Made by a program: the position numbers and the translations under genes
The notes under the pieces: model-generated
Seen by the model: the letters and a program-made list of their open reading frames with translations, nothing else
What the model was told of the DNA's origin: nothing
Database searches by the model: none
Assembly (NCBI GenBank): GCA_028693165.1
Contig: JAQUVX010000003.1
Coordinates: forward strand, 124,001 to 188,000
DNA: 64,000 nt
Reading direction: 5' to 3'
From: Lachnospiraceae bacterium
GTDB taxonomy: Bacteria > Bacillota > Clostridia > Lachnospirales > Lachnospiraceae
Shown: one piece after another, positions 3,819 through 61,163 of the stretch
Position numbering within the stretch: position 1 is the stretch's first letter
How the letters are laid out: each line of letters opens with the position of its first letter

Positions 3819-3958
3819 AAGGACGAGGAAATATATTTTCCAATGGCGATCATATAAAAACAGCGGTTGTTACCGGTGGAAGCTCTAGAGTAGGGCTTGG
3901 AACAAAAGTGATATCTCTTATCCAGAAAAATCATAAAATTTCAACAGAGGGGCTGTAA
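3815..3958 (+). pseudogene. Short-chain dehydrogenase remnant cut by the palindromic element
   Basis: One frame reads through a Rossmann nucleotide-binding start, KTAVVTGGSSRVGLGTKVI, typical of the first beta-alpha unit of short-chain dehydrogenases. After about 47 codons it runs into the palindromic element beginning at 3949 and stops at a TAA inside it. Nothing resembling the rest of a dehydrogenase follows the element. The frame can be followed back to a TTG overlapping the cupin stop codon. Read as a disrupted gene. Confidence 0.6.
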
Positions 3959-4080
3959 AATAAGTCCCTAAAAGAAAAATCGCCCAGACCGTGAAATGAT
4001 ATGCCCCCTGTCTACTTGACAGGGGGCATATCATTTGTCGGAACTGGCGATTCTTAATTAGGGACTTATTTTACAGCCCC
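3949..4080. mobile_element. 132-bp palindromic MITE-like element
   Basis: Both ends carry the same 23-bp inverted repeat beginning GGGGCTGTAAAATAAGTC. Inside it, ATCGCC and then an AAATGATATGCCCCCTGTC arm pair with their complements on the other side, so almost the whole element folds into one hairpin. It has no coding capacity. Terminal repeats, small size and insertion into a dehydrogenase fragment point to a non-autonomous transposable element; the ends resemble those of insertion sequences that begin with GGGGCTGT. No target duplication is obvious. Confidence 0.7.
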
Positions 4081-5109: not shown

Positions 5110-6624
5110 ATGATTTACAATGTGGTAAGAAACTTGGTACAGTATGGACTTGAGACGGGGGTGCTCGCACAGCAGGATGCAATTTATGCGAGGAATCAGA
5201 TCCTGGAGACGCTTAAGCTGGATGCTTATGAGGAGGTGCAGGCAGAAGAGGAGAACGCAGTCTGCGGGGATCTGGAAGCGATTCTGAAGGAGCTTTTGGA
5301 CTATGCCGCCGGGGAGGGACTGATTGAGGACAGCATCGGTTACCGGGATCTGTTTGATACGAAGCTGATGAACTGTCTGATGCCGCGGCCATCTGAGGTG
5401 TCGGCGAAGTTCTGGGATCTGTATGAGCAGGCGGGGGCGGAGGCTGCCACGGATTATTTCTATAAACTGAGTCAGGATTCGGATTATATCCGTCGCTACC
5501 GCGTGTGTAAGGATCAGAAGTGGGTCACAAAGACCGCTTACGGGGATCTGGACATCACCATCAATCTGTCCAAGCCGGAGAAAGATCCGAAGGCCATCGC
5601 GGCGGCAAAGCTGGCGAAGCAGAGCGGTTATCCGAAATGTTTGCTCTGTATGGAGAATGAGGGCTATGCAGGACGCCTGGATCACCCGGCCCGCAACAAT
5701 CACCGGATTATCCGCATCACCGTCAATGACAGTCAGTGGGGATTCCAGTATTCTCCGTATGTATATTACAATGAGCACTGCATCGTGTTCAACGGACAGC
5801 ACACACCGATGAAGATCGAGCGGGCTGCATTTGTGAAGCTGTTTGATTTTGTAAAGCAATTTCCGCACTATTTCCTGGGATCCAATGCGGATCTGCCAAT
5901 CGTGGGCGGATCGATTCTGAGCCATGATCATTTTCAGGGAGGACATTACACCTTTGCCATGGCGAAAGCGCCAATGGAAAAGACCTATCGCATGGAGGGC
6001 TACGAGGATGTGGAGGCAGGGATCGTCCACTGGCCGATGTCCGTGCTGCGTCTGCGGAGTGAAAACCCGGATCGTCTGATCGAACTGGGCGACAAGGTAC
6101 TGGGCGCATGGAGAGGCTACACCGATGAGGCGGCGTTTGTTTTTGCCGAGACGGAGGGAGAGCCGCACAACACGATCACGCCGATCGCCCGGAAGAAGGG
6201 CAAAGATTACGAGCTGGATCTGGTGCTGCGCAACAATATTACCACGGAGGAATACCCGCTGGGCGTGTACCATCCGCACCAGGAGCTGCATCACATCAAG
6301 AAGGAAAACATCGGGCTGATCGAGGTCATGGGACTGGCCGTGCTGCCGTCCCGACTGAAGGATGAACTGGCGCTGCTGGGTGAATACCTGGTGGAAGGAA
6401 AGGATGTTCGGAGCAATGAAATGCTTGAGAAGCACGCCGACTGGGTGGACGGGTTCCGTCCGCAGTATGGAGCGCTGACCAGCGAGAATGTGGAAGGAAT
6501 TCTGCAGGAGGAGGTCGGAAAGGTATTTGCCCGCGTGCTGGAGGACGCCGGTGTTTACAAGTGTACCAAAGAGGGACGGGCGGCGTTTGAACGCTTCTTA
6601 AACCGGGTTGGCTTTACCGGCTGA
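5110..6624 (+). CDS. galT: UDP-glucose--hexose-1-phosphate uridylyltransferase (class II)
   Basis: Exchanges UMP between UDP-glucose and galactose-1-phosphate in the Leloir pathway. The 504-residue size and sequence match the Firmicutes-type GalT. Visible marks are NHRIIRITVND, PYVYYNEHCIVFNGQH and the active-site segment GGSILSHDHFQGGHYTF with its His-x-His-x-Gln core. GGAGGGGAAGG precedes the ATG. No galK or galE is adjacent. It starts 36 bp after the Gx transporter gene and may be read from the same transcript. Confidence 0.95.
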   Translation: MIYNVVRNLVQYGLETGVLAQQDAIYARNQILETLKLDAYEEVQAEEENAVCGDLEAILKELLDYAAGEGLIEDSIGYRDLFDTKLMNCLMPRPSEVSAKFWDLYEQAGAEAATDYFYKLSQDSDYIRRYRVCKDQKWVTKTAYGDLDITINLSKPEKDPKAIAAAKLAKQSGYPKCLLCMENEGYAGRLDHPARNNHRIIRITVNDSQWGFQYSPYVYYNEHCIVFNGQHTPMKIERAAFVKLFDFVKQFPHYFLGSNADLPIVGGSILSHDHFQGGHYTFAMAKAPMEKTYRMEGYEDVEAGIVHWPMSVLRLRSENPDRLIELGDKVLGAWRGYTDEAAFVFAETEGEPHNTITPIARKKGKDYELDLVLRNNITTEEYPLGVYHPHQELHHIKKENIGLIEVMGLAVLPSRLKDELALLGEYLVEGKDVRSNEMLEKHADWVDGFRPQYGALTSENVEGILQEEVGKVFARVLEDAGVYKCTKEGRAAFERFLNRVGFTG

Positions 6625-6685
6625 AGCACAATAAAAATATTGTGGTAATTGCAGTAAAATTGGTGTTTGTAATGGTTGCTTCGCA

Positions 6686-13696: not shown

Positions 13697-14920
13697 ATGA
13701 AGGCAATCGAAGGAGGCGTGACTGCGGCGACCGGATTTATGGCGGCGTCCACAGCAGCCGGGATCAAATATAAGAACCGGAAGGATATGGCAATGATTTT
13801 CAGCATTTCCCCATGCCGCGCGGCGGGAACCTTTACGACCAATGTGGTCAAGGCGGCACCGGTCAAATGGGATCAGCAGGTGGTCGAGAAGTCACTGTAC
13901 GCGCAGGCGGTCGTGGTCAATGCAGGAATCGCCAATGCCTGTACGGGTGCGGAGGGACTTGGGTACTGTAAGGAGACCGCGGAGGCGGCTGCGGAGGCGC
14001 TCTGTATCAACGAGGATTCGGTGCTGGTGGCTTCTACCGGTGTGATCGGGAAGCAGCTTCCCATGGACCGGTTAAAGGCGGGCATTCAGACCATGGCACC
14101 GACGCTGGACGGCAGTCTGGAGAGCGGAACGGAAGCAGCCCAGGCCATCATGACCACGGACACGAAGAAGAAGGAAGTGGCAGTGCAGGTGGAGATCGGC
14201 GGCAAGACCGTGACCGTCGGCGGCATGTGCAAGGGCTCCGGCATGATTCATCCGAATATGTGCACCATGCTGGCTTTCGTGACGACGGATCTGCTGATTT
14301 CGAAGGAGCTTTTGCAGGAGGCGCTGCGTGAAGATATCAAGGATACTTACAATATGATCTCTGTGGACGGCGACACGTCTACCAATGACACGGTGCTTCT
14401 GCTGGCAAATGGGATGGCTGGCAATCCGGAGATTACGGAGAAGAATGCGGATTATGAGGTGTTCTGCGAGGCGCTTCGTTATGTCAATGAGAGTCTGGCC
14501 AAGAAGATGGCGGGCGACGGCGAGGGCTGTACGGCGCTGTTTGAGGTGAAGGTGATCGGTGCGGAGAGCAAGGCGCAGGCGGTGACCTTGTCAAAATCCA
14601 TCATTACCTCCAGTCTTACCAAGGCGGCGATCTTTGGACACGATGCCAACTGGGGACGAATTCTGTGTGCAATGGGGTATTCCGGCGCACAGTTTGATCC
14701 GGAGAAGGTGGATTTGTTCTTTGAGAGTGCGGCGGGCAGGATGCAGATCATCAAGGATGGCGTGGCGCTGGATTACAGCGAGGACGAGGCCACGAAGATC
14801 CTTTCTGAGCCGGAAGTGACGGCGATCGCAGATGTGAAGATGGGCGATGCGGCGGCGACGGCCTGGGGGTGTGATTTGACGTTTGATTATGTGAAGATTA
14901 ATGCGGATTACAGGTCGTAA
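13697..14920 (+). CDS. argJ: Bifunctional ornithine acetyltransferase / N-acetylglutamate synthase
   Basis: Transfers the acetyl group from N-acetylornithine to glutamate. The 407-residue precursor normally self-cleaves before a conserved Thr, giving alpha and beta chains. The cleavage motif is seen as KGSGMIHPNMCTMLAF, with the nucleophile Thr after Cys instead of the more usual Ala. GDTSTNDTVLLLANG and GHDANWGRILCAMGYSG are further family marks. Whether it is mono- or bifunctional cannot be read reliably. Just downstream comes a large palindrome rather than argB directly. Confidence 0.93.
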   Translation: MKAIEGGVTAATGFMAASTAAGIKYKNRKDMAMIFSISPCRAAGTFTTNVVKAAPVKWDQQVVEKSLYAQAVVVNAGIANACTGAEGLGYCKETAEAAAEALCINEDSVLVASTGVIGKQLPMDRLKAGIQTMAPTLDGSLESGTEAAQAIMTTDTKKKEVAVQVEIGGKTVTVGGMCKGSGMIHPNMCTMLAFVTTDLLISKELLQEALREDIKDTYNMISVDGDTSTNDTVLLLANGMAGNPEITEKNADYEVFCEALRYVNESLAKKMAGDGEGCTALFEVKVIGAESKAQAVTLSKSIITSSLTKAAIFGHDANWGRILCAMGYSGAQFDPEKVDLFFESAAGRMQIIKDGVALDYSEDEATKILSEPEVTAIADVKMGDAAATAWGCDLTFDYVKINADYRS

Positions 14921-14925
14921 CATAC

Positions 14926-15117
14926 GCGGTAAATCGACTGAATTGTTTGCGGGTTTCGGGTTGAGAAGTTCTAGGCTCGCAGATGTTTGTTAAATGCGTT
15001 CTGAAAAATCAGAACTCGCTTCGCTCAAACATACTGATTTTTCAGAACAACACAAACATCTGCGGGCCAAGAACTTCTAAAACCCTGCAAATGCAAACAA
15101 TTCAGTCGATTTACCGC
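14926..15117. repeat. Large intergenic palindrome, copy A (about 192 nt)
   Basis: The outer arms are a perfect 25-bp inverted repeat (14926-14950 with 15093-15117). The middle arms pair around GAAGTTCTaGGCtCGCAG, with a few mismatches, and the inner arms pair through GTTCTGAAAAATCAG. The apical loop contains TCGCTTCGCTCA. No T-tract follows, and it has no ORF of its own. A second copy lies at 23946-24145. It occupies most of the argJ-argB gap. Confidence 0.85.
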
Positions 15118-15234
15118 TGATAGTTGGCGGCGCTGGGTTGGAAGAGCAAGAGCGAAAAGCAAGAGCGGAAAAGCGAGAGTGAAAGATGAGATTGGAAAAG
15201 ATAAAGATAAATTAGGATAATGGGGAGGTTTGGG
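15118..15234 (+). other. Purine-rich repetitive leader before argB
   Basis: Between the palindrome and argB lies a strongly purine-rich stretch built from loose AAGAGC/GAAAAGC units, ending in the ribosome site GGGGAGG and TTTGGG before the ATG. A very similar arrangement follows the other palindrome copy before trkA. No coding sequence is seen. Confidence 0.6.
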
Positions 15235-16122
15235 ATGGAGATGAATGAGATGCAGAAGGCGGAGGTGCTGATTGAGGCGCTTCCTTATATTCAGCGGTTT
15301 AACCGGAAGATTATTGTGGTGAAGTATGGTGGGAGTGCTATGGTGGATGAGCAGTTGAAGCATCAGGTGATTCAGGATGTGGTGCTGCTGAAGCTGGTGG
15401 GATTTAAGCCGATCATCGTTCACGGGGGCGGCAAGGAGATCAGCAAGTGGGTTGGGAAGGTGGGCATGGAGCCGCATTTTGTCAATGGGCTGCGTGTGAC
15501 GGATGAGGCGACCATGGAAATTGCTGAGATGGTACTCAATAAGGTGAATAAAAGTCTGGTTCAGCTTGTGAATGAGCTTGGTATCAAGGCAGTTGGAATC
15601 AGCGGTAAGGATGGGATGATGCTGCACTGCGAGAAAAAATATTCCAAGGGCGAGGACATCGGCTACGTCGGAGATGTGACGAAGGTGGACCCGGAGATTA
15701 TTTATGATCTGCTGGAGAAGGATTTTTTGCCGATCATCTGTCCGATTGGGTTTGATGAGGAGTTTAAGAGCTACAACATTAATGCGGATGATGCGGCGTG
15801 CGCGATTGCGCGTGCGGTGCATGCGGAGAAGCTGGCATTTTTGACGGACGTGGAGGGTGTTTACCGCGATTTTGAGGATAAGAGTTCTCTGATTTCCGAG
15901 ATGTCCGTGGATGAGGCACAGGCCTTTGTCGAGAGCGGAAGTCTGGGCGGGGGTATGCTCCCGAAGCTGCAAAACTGTATCGACGCGATCCGCAACGGCG
16001 TATCCCGCGTACATATTCTGGACGGACGGATTGCACATTGTCTGCTGCTGGAGATTTTTACCAACCGTGGTATTGGTACGGCGCTTGTGGGAAATGATGC
16101 AGAGCGTTATTCACATGAATAA
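15235..16122 (+). CDS. argB: Acetylglutamate kinase
   Basis: Phosphorylates N-acetylglutamate. The 295-residue protein carries [11 protein letters not shown] (phosphate-binding Lys), [26 protein letters not shown] and [19 protein letters not shown], all amino-acid-kinase/ArgB landmarks. ATG 15235 is preferred over an in-frame start at 15220 because GGGAGG is 6-8 nt upstream. The first 150 bp of the gene are unusually poor in C on the coding strand compared with its 3' end. It follows palindrome A and precedes argD by 25 bp. Confidence 0.96.
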
Positions 16123-17362: not shown

Positions 17363-17376
17363 GAAAATGGAAGATA

Positions 17377-17436
17377 AAATCCCCGCAGGGACGCAGATAT
17401 GTGAAGCATAAGCGTCCCTGCGGGGATTTCATTTTT
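17377..17436 (+). terminator. Strong terminator ending the arg cluster
   Basis: An 18-bp perfect stem (17377-17394 with 17412-17429), core CCCCGCAGGGACGC, is followed by CATTTTT. Confidence 0.9.
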
Positions 17437-22536: not shown

Positions 22537-22567
22537 CAGATAGAAAAAGAAAAATGTGGAGACGGAT

Positions 22568-23932
22568 ATGGGGAATATTGTGACAAGAAAGCTGTATCAG
22601 GTGCGCAGCCATCTGACGCAGACACAGTTTATTGCATATGGATTTATCGGAATCATTTTGACCGGCACGCTTCTTTTGATGCTGCCGTTCTCAAGCAGGA
22701 ATGGGGAGGTTTCTCCGTTTATCAACTGTCTGTTTACGGCGACCAGCGCTTCCTGCGTGACCGGACTGGTCGTCTATGATACCTGGACGCACTGGTCGCT
22801 GTTCGGGCAGCTTGTGATCCTGACGCTGATTCAGATCGGCGGACTTGGTTTCATCACCATCGGTGTATTTCTTTCCATGATTTTGCGGCGCAAGATCGGA
22901 CTGAAGGAGCGGGGGCTGATGCAGGAGAGCGTCAATACCCTGCAAATCGGCGGTATGGTTAAGCTGGCAAGAAAGATTATAATCGGGACAGCGATCTTTG
23001 AGGGGACAGGCGCTCTCATTCTGGCGATTCGGTTTATCCCGGAGCTTGGCATTTTGAAGGGAATTTATTACGGGGTGTTCCATTCGATTTCCGCGTTCTG
23101 TAATGCGGGCTTCGACCTGATGGGGCGGCAGGGGGCTTACAGCTCATTGGTCAATTATTACGATGACTGGACGGTCAATCTGGTGGTGATGTCTCTGATC
23201 GTCATCGGCGGTATCGGCTTTGTAGTGTGGGATGATCTGAGCCGCCATGGCTTGAAATTCAACAAATACATGCTGCACACAAAGATCGTGGTGTTGACGA
23301 CATTTGTACTGGTTTTCGGAGGCGCGTACCTGTTCTATCGTTTTGAGAAGGATTATCTGATCGCGGGAATGAACCCCAGCGGACAGATTCTGACCTCGCT
23401 GTTCAGCTCGGTAACGGCGAGAACGGCCGGCTTTAATACGGTCGACACGGCGAAACTGACGGACGCGAGCAAATTATTGACGGTGATTCTGATGTTCATC
23501 GGCGGAAGCCCGGGGTCAACGGCGGGCGGTGTCAAGACGACGACCATTGTAGTCATGTATCTGTACCTTCGCTCGACCATTCAGCGAAGCTATGGCGTCA
23601 ATGTATTTGGACGCAGGCTGGAGGACGATGCAATCAAGCGTGCAAGTACGATTTTTCTGATCAACTTGACGCTGGCGCTGACGGCGGCGGTTTATATCAT
23701 GGCAGGTCAGCAGATTCCGATGTCGGATGTGCTTTTTGAGACATTTTCTGCGATCGGTACGGTGGGAATGACCACAGGCATTACCCGTATGCTCAATCCC
23801 ATGTCGCGGCTGACGATTGTATTTTTGATGTATTGCGGACGTGTGGGAAGTTTGTCCTTTGCGCTGTCGTTTACGCAGGGCAAGCGGGTGGCACATGTGC
23901 GGCAGCCGGAGGAGCGGATTAATATTGGGTAA
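22568..23932 (+). CDS. TrkH-family potassium uptake channel subunit (first system)
   Basis: A 454-residue membrane protein of the Trk/Ktr/HKT superfamily with four M1-P-M2 units. Pore-loop glycine regions appear as TSASCVTGLVVYDT, HSISAFCNAGFDLMG, SSVTARTAGFNTVD and FSAIGTVGMTTGI; the intramembrane loop region includes FIGGSPGSTAGGVKTTT. The short cytoplasmic tails resemble KtrB. ATG 22568 is chosen for a GGAG site 6 nt away; GTG 22556 is an alternative. Its partner, the 217-residue regulator at 24241, is separated by palindrome B. Confidence 0.92.
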   Translation: MGNIVTRKLYQVRSHLTQTQFIAYGFIGIILTGTLLLMLPFSSRNGEVSPFINCLFTATSASCVTGLVVYDTWTHWSLFGQLVILTLIQIGGLGFITIGVFLSMILRRKIGLKERGLMQESVNTLQIGGMVKLARKIIIGTAIFEGTGALILAIRFIPELGILKGIYYGVFHSISAFCNAGFDLMGRQGAYSSLVNYYDDWTVNLVVMSLIVIGGIGFVVWDDLSRHGLKFNKYMLHTKIVVLTTFVLVFGGAYLFYRFEKDYLIAGMNPSGQILTSLFSSVTARTAGFNTVDTAKLTDASKLLTVILMFIGGSPGSTAGGVKTTTIVVMYLYLRSTIQRSYGVNVFGRRLEDDAIKRASTIFLINLTLALTAAVYIMAGQQIPMSDVLFETFSAIGTVGMTTGITRMLNPMSRLTIVFLMYCGRVGSLSFALSFTQGKRVAHVRQPEERINIG

Positions 23933-23945
23933 GAGCCAAGGGTCC

Positions 23946-24145
23946 GCGGATTCAAATTGTCGGATTGCTTTGCGGGTTGCAGAATCCGGATGTTCTAAGC
24001 TCGCAGAAGTTTGCTAAGGGCGTTATGAAAAATCAAAACTTGCTTCGCTCAGACATCTTGATTTTTCATAACAACGCAAATTTCTGCAAGCTAAGAACTT
24101 CTGCGGATTCTGCAAATGCAAAGAAATCCGACAATTTGAATCCGC
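23946..24145. repeat. Large intergenic palindrome, copy B (about 200 nt)
   Basis: Outer arms starting GCGGATTCAAATTGTCGGAT (23946 on) pair with 24125-24145 and beyond. Middle arms around GTTCTaAGCTcGCAGAA and an inner TTATGAAAAATCAA arm follow, with the loop CTTGCTTCGCTCA. The middle, inner and loop parts resemble copy A (14926-15117), while the outer arms are different but still self-complementary. No T-tract follows. Confidence 0.85.
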
Positions 24146-24240: not shown

Positions 24241-24894
24241 ATGAAGTCTATTTTGATTATTGGAATGGGGCGGTTTGGGCGGCATCTTTGTAAGAACTTG
24301 TCTGAGCTGGGAAATCAGGTTATGATTGTGGATGAGAAGGAAGAGAATCTGGAGGAGCTGTTCCCTTATGTGGTCAGTGCGAAGATCGGGGACTGTACGA
24401 ATGAGGCCGTGTTGAAGAGCCTGGGAATCTCGAATTTTGATCTGTGCTTTGTGTGCATTGGGACGAATTTCCAGAGCAGTCTGGAGATCACGAGTCTGGT
24501 GAAGGAGCTGGGCGGCCGTCATGTGATCAGCAAGGCGAACCGCGACATTCATGCGAAGTTCCTGCTGCGAAATGGTGCGGACGAGGTCATTTATCCAGAT
24601 CGGGATATCGCGGAGAAACTGGCGGTTCGTTACAGCGCAAACCATGTCTTTGATTATATCGAGCTGACGGATGAGTATTCTATTTACGAGATTCCGCCGC
24701 TACCGGAATGGGTCAACAAGAGCCTGAAGGATTTGAGCATTCGAAATGAATATCATATCAGTATTCTCGGAAGCAAGGAGAACGGCAAGGCAAAGCTGAT
24801 GCCGGGGGCGGATTATGTGATCCGTGAGGATGAACATCTGATGATCATCGGAAAAAAAGTAGATGTGGATAAGATTTTGAAGGAATTGCCATAA
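24241..24894 (+). CDS. KtrA/TrkA-type potassium channel regulatory subunit
   Basis: A 217-residue cytoplasmic protein with one RCK-N domain (KSILIIGMGRFGRHLCKNL, with NAD(H)/ATP-binding GxGxxG, and the acidic VDEKEEN strand end) and one RCK-C domain from about 135. The single-copy length matches KtrA rather than full TrkA. RCK-C domains of this group can bind c-di-AMP, and a diadenylate cyclase gene lies at the end of this window. It gates the TrkH-family channel encoded upstream. Confidence 0.92.
   Translation: MKSILIIGMGRFGRHLCKNLSELGNQVMIVDEKEENLEELFPYVVSAKIGDCTNEAVLKSLGISNFDLCFVCIGTNFQSSLEITSLVKELGGRHVISKANRDIHAKFLLRNGADEVIYPDRDIAEKLAVRYSANHVFDYIELTDEYSIYEIPPLPEWVNKSLKDLSIRNEYHISILGSKENGKAKLMPGADYVIREDEHLMIIGKKVDVDKILKELP

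Positions 24895-59669: not shown

Positions 59670-61163
<1,494 letters not shown>

Follow-up and report, generated by a model that had tools for sequence, protein, structure and literature searches.

Two long intergenic hairpins in a Lachnospiraceae genome as probable insertions of a mobile palindromic repeat, with arms probably matched at the DNA level

The window, which is the whole stretch of 64,000 nucleotides that was analysed, contains two long hairpins located between neighbouring genes. The two hairpins, copies A and B, have a common core, and their outer arms differ in sequence between the copies and yet are self-complementary within each. This raises the question of what keeps the arms matched: selection on an RNA structure, selection on folded DNA, or a process that rewrites one arm from the other in a mobile element.

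Position and fold of the two hairpins

We aligned the cores of 34 copies (alignment A2) and derived a covariance model, R1, from this alignment. The features of the two copies in the window and of their neighbours, all on the plus strand, are as follows.

13697..14920, +, argJ, upstream neighbour of copy A (NF003802, 480.9 bits)
14926..15117, +, copy A of the hairpin repeat, between argJ and argB (R1 core match 14950-15093, 144.9 bits)
14926..14950, +, copy A outer arm, 5' side, copy-specific (25 nt, 100% complementary to 15093-15117)
14958..14990, +, copy A middle arm, 5' side (88% complementary to 15052-15084)
14998..15012, +, copy A inner arm, 5' side (15 nt, 100% complementary to 15034-15048)
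15013..15033, +, copy A conserved apical segment AACTC-(GCTTCGC)-TCAAACA (from sequence; conserved in alignment A2)
15034..15048, +, copy A inner arm, 3' side (pairs with 14998-15012)
15052..15084, +, copy A middle arm, 3' side (pairs with 14958-14990)
15093..15117, +, copy A outer arm, 3' side (pairs with 14926-14950, 25/25)
15220..16122, +, argB, downstream neighbour of copy A (TIGR00761, 263.9 bits)
22556..23932, +, trkH-like gene, upstream neighbour of copy B (TIGR00933, 326.2 bits, just under the NCBIfam cut-off of 331.15)
23946..24145, +, copy B of the hairpin repeat, between trkH and trkA (R1 core match 23974-24118, 126.3 bits)
23946..23973, +, copy B outer arm, 5' side, copy-specific (28 nt, 96% complementary to 24118-24145, 27/28 with one mismatch)
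23977..23988, +, copy B 5' internal-loop stretch matching the 3' side (TTGCAGAATCCG), a probable partial rewrite (12 nt, 100% complementary)
24022..24036, +, copy B inner arm, 5' side (15 nt, 100% complementary to 24058-24072)
24037..24057, +, copy B conserved apical segment (from sequence)
24058..24072, +, copy B inner arm, 3' side (pairs with 24022-24036)
24104..24115, +, copy B, 3' partner of 23977-23988 (complementarity over 12 nt, 100%)
24118..24145, +, copy B outer arm, 3' side (pairs with 23946-23973)
24241..24894, +, trkA-like gene, downstream neighbour of copy B (TrkA model matches, all under their cut-offs)

The coordinates, arms and loop that an earlier sequence-only reading had assigned to the two copies proved exact. 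That reading had described outer arms that differ between the copies and remain self-complementary, which is the case (25 of 25 pairs in copy A and 27 of 28 in copy B), and middle arms, an inner arm and a loop common to the two, which is also the case: each copy has the loop string GCTTCGCTCA without change, and the cores of copies A, B and C, the last being a further copy in the same genome, are 71-83% identical, as against 44-72% for the outer arms. Its placement of the hairpins between argJ and argB and between trkH and trkA holds, all four genes lying on the plus strand, and, as it had stated, neither copy A nor copy B is followed by a T-run in the sequence read. Copy A folds with an energy of -113.2 kcal/mol (z -16.9) and copy B with -112.1 kcal/mol (z -14.6), and none of 200 shuffles folded as well as either.

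Copy C, located at G000:C1 near 59,900-60,140, was the sole further locus that a DNA search found in the window's own genome. The six R1 matches in this genome correspond to three places, since one place may count on both strands. A search of the same genome for the loop motif with up to one mismatch gave 21 matches, compared to 10 with the reversed control, and three of the 21 are the hairpin repeat. The hairpins matched no Rfam family, either in the whole window at gathering scores or in 14850-15250 at E values up to 1, and the single Rfam match among further copies was to a 16S rRNA adjoining one copy and not to the hairpin element. The only terminator-like site in the surroundings of copy A (14850-15300) is at 15261-15284, inside argB.

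Spread of the repeat and its insertion sites

R1 matched in 10 of the 24 genomes of the genus, the window's own included. Match numbers in these genus scans, as in the family scan, can score one place on both strands; relative G017 has at least 132 matches at no fewer than 104 distinct places, G013 has 113 matches at a minimum of 37 distinct places, and G004 has 43 matches. Beyond the genus, R1 matched in at least 43 of the 299 family genomes scanned (one per genus, with a single exception) and in at least 23 of 295 genomes of the order, 15 of these belonging to other families; both counts are too low, because these scans were filtered more strictly and limited to ten scored candidates in each genome. 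In another search with ten matching genomes, two of the ten (G003 and G022) matched only 30 nt of the query, a part that lies beyond the hairpin. All four loci read from the order scan (L296-L299) have AACTC, a short stem that is variable but paired, and then TCARACA at the tip. The only named genome that matched a strict 31-nt core pattern was the goat-rumen Lachnospiraceae MAG RGIG3649, the copies of which have arms of their own sequence. The copies retrieved for the analyses below were mostly the top-scoring matches rather than a random sample.

The sequence-only reading had listed a new family of palindromic mobile repeats among its possibilities and had proposed a covariance-model search as the check. 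This search recovered further copies, dispersed in related genomes and with their pairing kept, and the hairpins almost certainly belong to a dispersed mobile family. We found no published description of the repeat in the open-licence literature, as judged by titles and the openings of abstracts.

An origin in a phage or a plasmid was considered and rejected: copy A was unmatched in phage and plasmid searches, and the G017 element had no match among plasmids and one match to a faecal scaffold labelled phage. The scaffold, an unannotated record from human faeces labelled Bacteriophage sp. (L351), contains a hairpin copy at 1501-1612; its big neighbouring open reading frames resemble carbohydrate enzymes by eye, so it may be bacterial. 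The loop string was present in eight viral contigs, and the long hairpin fold in none of the eight. In viral contig L290, the tip string ACTCGCTTCGCTCAGACA lies in two shorter hairpins, at 6513 on the plus strand and at 6670 on the reverse complement, which suggests that the tip motif may occur beyond the hairpin-repeat family.

We compared the two insertion sites with the corresponding spacers in other genomes. The argJ-argB spacer is 299 nt long in the window and 4-234 nt in 21 other genus members with a readable locus; the trkH-trkA spacer is 308 nt long in the window and 10-204 nt in 27 other loci, comprising 17 close orthologs and 10 distant pairs. R1 matched nothing in these spacers of other genus members; the other matches across the 51 loci were two in number, one truncated at the edge of L240 and one weak (19.2 bits) at the trkA 3' end in L272. 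Because the element is missing from both spacers in relatives, it was most simply gained in the window's genome, and the spacer comparison suggests that copies A and B would most simply be lineage-specific insertions between argJ and argB and between trkH and trkA.

The ends of the element are most clearly seen in relatives. In G017 the terminal inverted repeat is 18 bp long, CAATGTCAGT(A/T)AGTTAAG, with a variant in G013; full elements in G017 appear as inverted repeat pairs recurring at exactly 309 bp, and the pattern CAATGTCANTNAGTTAAG occurs 158 times in this genome, compared to zero for the reversed control. From G017 and G013, 20 stretches picked by the spacing of the repeats were retrieved and 18 were scanned, of which 17 had a pair; exact direct repeats of 9-10 bp flank eight of these 17 pairs, and an exact target duplication is absent at the other nine. 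Remnants were found as elements of 258-259 bp that have lost the tip, and as stretches of 63-64 bp (L333 and L346) that consist of two terminal repeats with little between them, L333 with an intact 9-bp duplication. Both sizes fit palindrome-driven deletion. In G069 the arms extend to a different end, near GTTACTGTTCAC, and since this end is unlike that of G017, the terminal sequences vary by lineage. The 18-bp terminal repeat was not found near copies A, B and C, and neither clear ends nor a target duplication were seen by eye at these copies. No transposase was found, and one long inverted terminal-repeat pair, L331, encloses no transposase-like open reading frame by eye.

The hairpin repeat is like MITEs in being short, non-coding, dispersed and mostly intergenic and, in relatives, in having terminal inverted repeats and target-site duplications. 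It differs from them in that nearly all of it is one long hairpin, with arms that are hypervariable yet matched and with a conserved asymmetric core, and in that its parent transposon was not found here.

Matching of the arms

The mismatches between the arms distinguish pairing kept in RNA from pairing kept in DNA. A G.U pair works in RNA and an A.C pair fails, so selection on RNA should favour G.U; the mismatches of the hairpin repeat show no such preference. In the outer arms of 163 distinct copies, a set from which copies cut by contig ends, with less than 60 nt of flank or identical to another copy were left out, 6,554 of the 6,951 aligned pairs were Watson-Crick, and the mismatches included 129 G.T and 109 A.C. 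The G.T:A.C ratio was 40:47 in the 113 copies with arms at least 93% Watson-Crick, 14:15 in the 73 copies with arms at least 96% Watson-Crick, and 22:26 in the core of 34 copies. The ratio was 29:1 in the SAM riboswitch of the same genus, which was used as the RNA control (RNAalifold consensus structure; 19 of the 21 riboswitches found, two long ones, L329 and L330, being left out). The window itself has a SAM riboswitch at 13-152 (61.1 bits), and it is the relatives of this riboswitch within the genus that served as the control. The near equality of G.T and A.C in the hairpin repeat, compared to 29:1 in the SAM riboswitch, indicates that the arms are very probably kept matched at the DNA level.

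The arms of the repeat drift fast yet pair almost perfectly. Nine copies in G069 (of ten distinct copies, L204 being left out because of a shifted match) have a mean identity of 60% in the arms and 91% in the cores. Changes were counted on pairs taken from RNAfold, which admits G.U and not A.C in the reference copy and so favours G.U, and the copy pairs share related copies, so that the changes are not independent events. On this basis, the 14 copy pairs of greatest similarity differed in their outer arms by 47 double Watson-Crick changes, by 10 single changes that gave G.U and by 12 single breaking changes, the remaining six being five double breaks and one double change with G.U. Counted in the same way, the next band of 94 copy pairs, with an arm identity of 70-85%, showed 574 double Watson-Crick changes, 146 single changes to G.U and 165 single breaking changes, and the remaining 66 were 55 double breaks and 11 double changes with G.U. 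Single changes are common in these less alike copy pairs.

Some copies have footprints of rewriting. In at least four of 162 copies, an internal loop that is asymmetric in other copies has been replaced by the reverse complement of the opposite arm, on the left in L205 and L216, on the right in L081, and in part on the left in copy B of the window. These four were kept on reading from 16 that a motif test had flagged (the other 12 were discounted because the motif occurred elsewhere), and 37 of the 162 copies had neither motif and were not judgeable. A search for rewritten arms as perfect blocks of 26 nt returned one copy, L187, in which a perfect block of 31 nt covers positions that are mismatched in its kin. 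The loop rewriting and the block in L187 are what template switching predicts.

We conclude, with a probability of roughly 0.7, that copies A and B arose by insertion of a mobile palindromic repeat resembling MITEs, and that template switching homogenises its arms around an asymmetric core that is under selection. In the mechanism that we propose, one arm would mutate, the nascent strand would fold on the palindrome during replication, and template switching (quasipalindrome correction) would copy the mutation to the other arm, which would restore the pairing at the DNA level. The asymmetric core, with its unequal internal loops and its AACTC-stem-TCARACA tip, would be held by selection, because arm copying would otherwise erase the asymmetry, yet most copies keep it. 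The likeliest reason for this selection would be that a mobilising enzyme recognises the folded DNA. Copies A and B, located after argJ and trkH, would fold in any read-through mRNA as a by-product.

Template switching has been proposed to make and keep hairpins in RNA genes (PMC8794818) and to explain the concerted palindromes of Nematomorpha mitochondria (PMC6649704). With these and with quasipalindromes the hairpin repeat has in common the paired changes of the arms and the rewriting of one arm from the other; it differs from them in being a dispersed mobile family with more than 100 places in one genome, which amount to replicate measurements. The family is therefore a natural assay for the frequency at which replication rewrites the arms of a palindrome.

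Alternative explanations

Template switching is deduced from the mismatch pattern and a few footprints, and selection on a DNA cruciform also gives equal G.T and A.C. According to this alternative, only copies that form a near-perfect hairpin or cruciform transpose or survive. The near equality of the two mismatches fits a structure needed on both strands, and the conserved asymmetric loops of the core resemble recognition features. However, paired changes should accumulate slowly by selection alone in arms that vary freely, and selection on pairing does not itself produce the block rewriting of one arm from the other that a few copies show. We consider template switching the probable cause of the matching when the two are compared, and selection on folded DNA not very likely.

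It is unlikely that the repeat is a transposon whose mobile form is a folded single strand of DNA, with one arm re-synthesised from the other at each round and with the asymmetric core as the recognition structure of the enzyme. If it were to move in this way, each new copy would begin with freshly matched arms.

We regard it as quite unlikely that the hairpins are a structured RNA, such as an attenuator, an RNase III site or a 3'-end stabiliser, with arms that covary by selection on RNA. The position of the copies is in favour of such a role: in the sequence read around 144 copies, a crude ORF caller, which misses argB at copy A, placed a gene 5' of 136, and 88 of these copies are sense to it and 48 antisense (binomial p 0.0008). 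This preference for the space after a gene also fits survival after 3' ends, with incidental effects on the mRNA possible. The covariation of the core is in favour as well, since 95.2% of the cells are paired, both partners have changed in 30 of the 39 pairs and none of 500 shuffles is as strong, and covariation is commonly treated as proof of functional RNA. However, the mismatch counts of the core imply that its strong covariation need not mean RNA, and the preference for wobble pairs seen in the SAM riboswitch is missing from arms and core alike, which undercuts the earlier step from compensation to selection on RNA. The G.T:A.C ratio was 77:66 in copies sense to the 3' end of the neighbouring gene and 17:13 in antisense copies, with no clear difference between the two. 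Furthermore, the element has no Rfam match, its stems have no T-run after them, and both spacers are without it in the other genus members read; this last result weakens the interpretation as attenuators or mRNA processing elements in the sequence-only reading. Because the G.T/A.C test assigns very strong covariation to a DNA-level process in this family, mobile palindromes can mislead covariance-based RNA discovery.

It is very improbable that the repeat is of the REPIN type and is moved by a RAYT (Y1) transposase, and the RAYT link was rejected, because Y1_Tnp (PF01797) does not track the hairpin family, being unmatched in four of the ten hairpin-bearing genus genomes (G012, G013, G016 and G018, 86-95% complete) and present in hairpin-free genomes (for example, seven matches in G001), because the 9-10 bp target duplications in G017 and G013 are not typical of Y1 elements, and because size and layout differ, REPs being 20-40 bp long with GTAG or CGTC tags and REPINs having conserved outer parts and a variable spacer, whereas the hairpin repeat is about 200 nt long in the window and 309 bp in G017 and has variable outer arms and a conserved centre. 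The points of likeness are one Y1_Tnp match in the window's own genome and three in G017, the intergenic hairpin-forming inverted repeats with compensatory changes described for REPINs (PMC3116915), and the preference for the space after genes described for REPs (PMC3733652). A CGTC string is found 5' of several G320 copies, the ends of which were read by eye only.

Other repeats and structured inserts were noticed in the window and at the compared loci. A separate hairpin of 132 bp at 3949-4080 of the window ends in GGGGCTGTAAAATAAGTCCCTAA and its complement (23 nt, 100%) and has a second inverted repeat of 38 nt inside; it looks like another MITE-like element. The argJ-argB spacer of G009 (L255) contains a different structured insert of 234 nt (fold -97.8 kcal/mol), and the trkH-trkA spacer of G021 (L275) contains another of 204 nt (fold -45.9 kcal/mol), neither with an R1 match. 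The two inserts have similar GTAGCGG..CTAA.TTCGC strings, and it is possible that they represent a second repeat family and that the two spacers are insertion hot spots. Just after argD, at 17371-17435 of the window, lies an inverted repeat of 24 nt, with arms that are 17 nt apart and 92% complementary.
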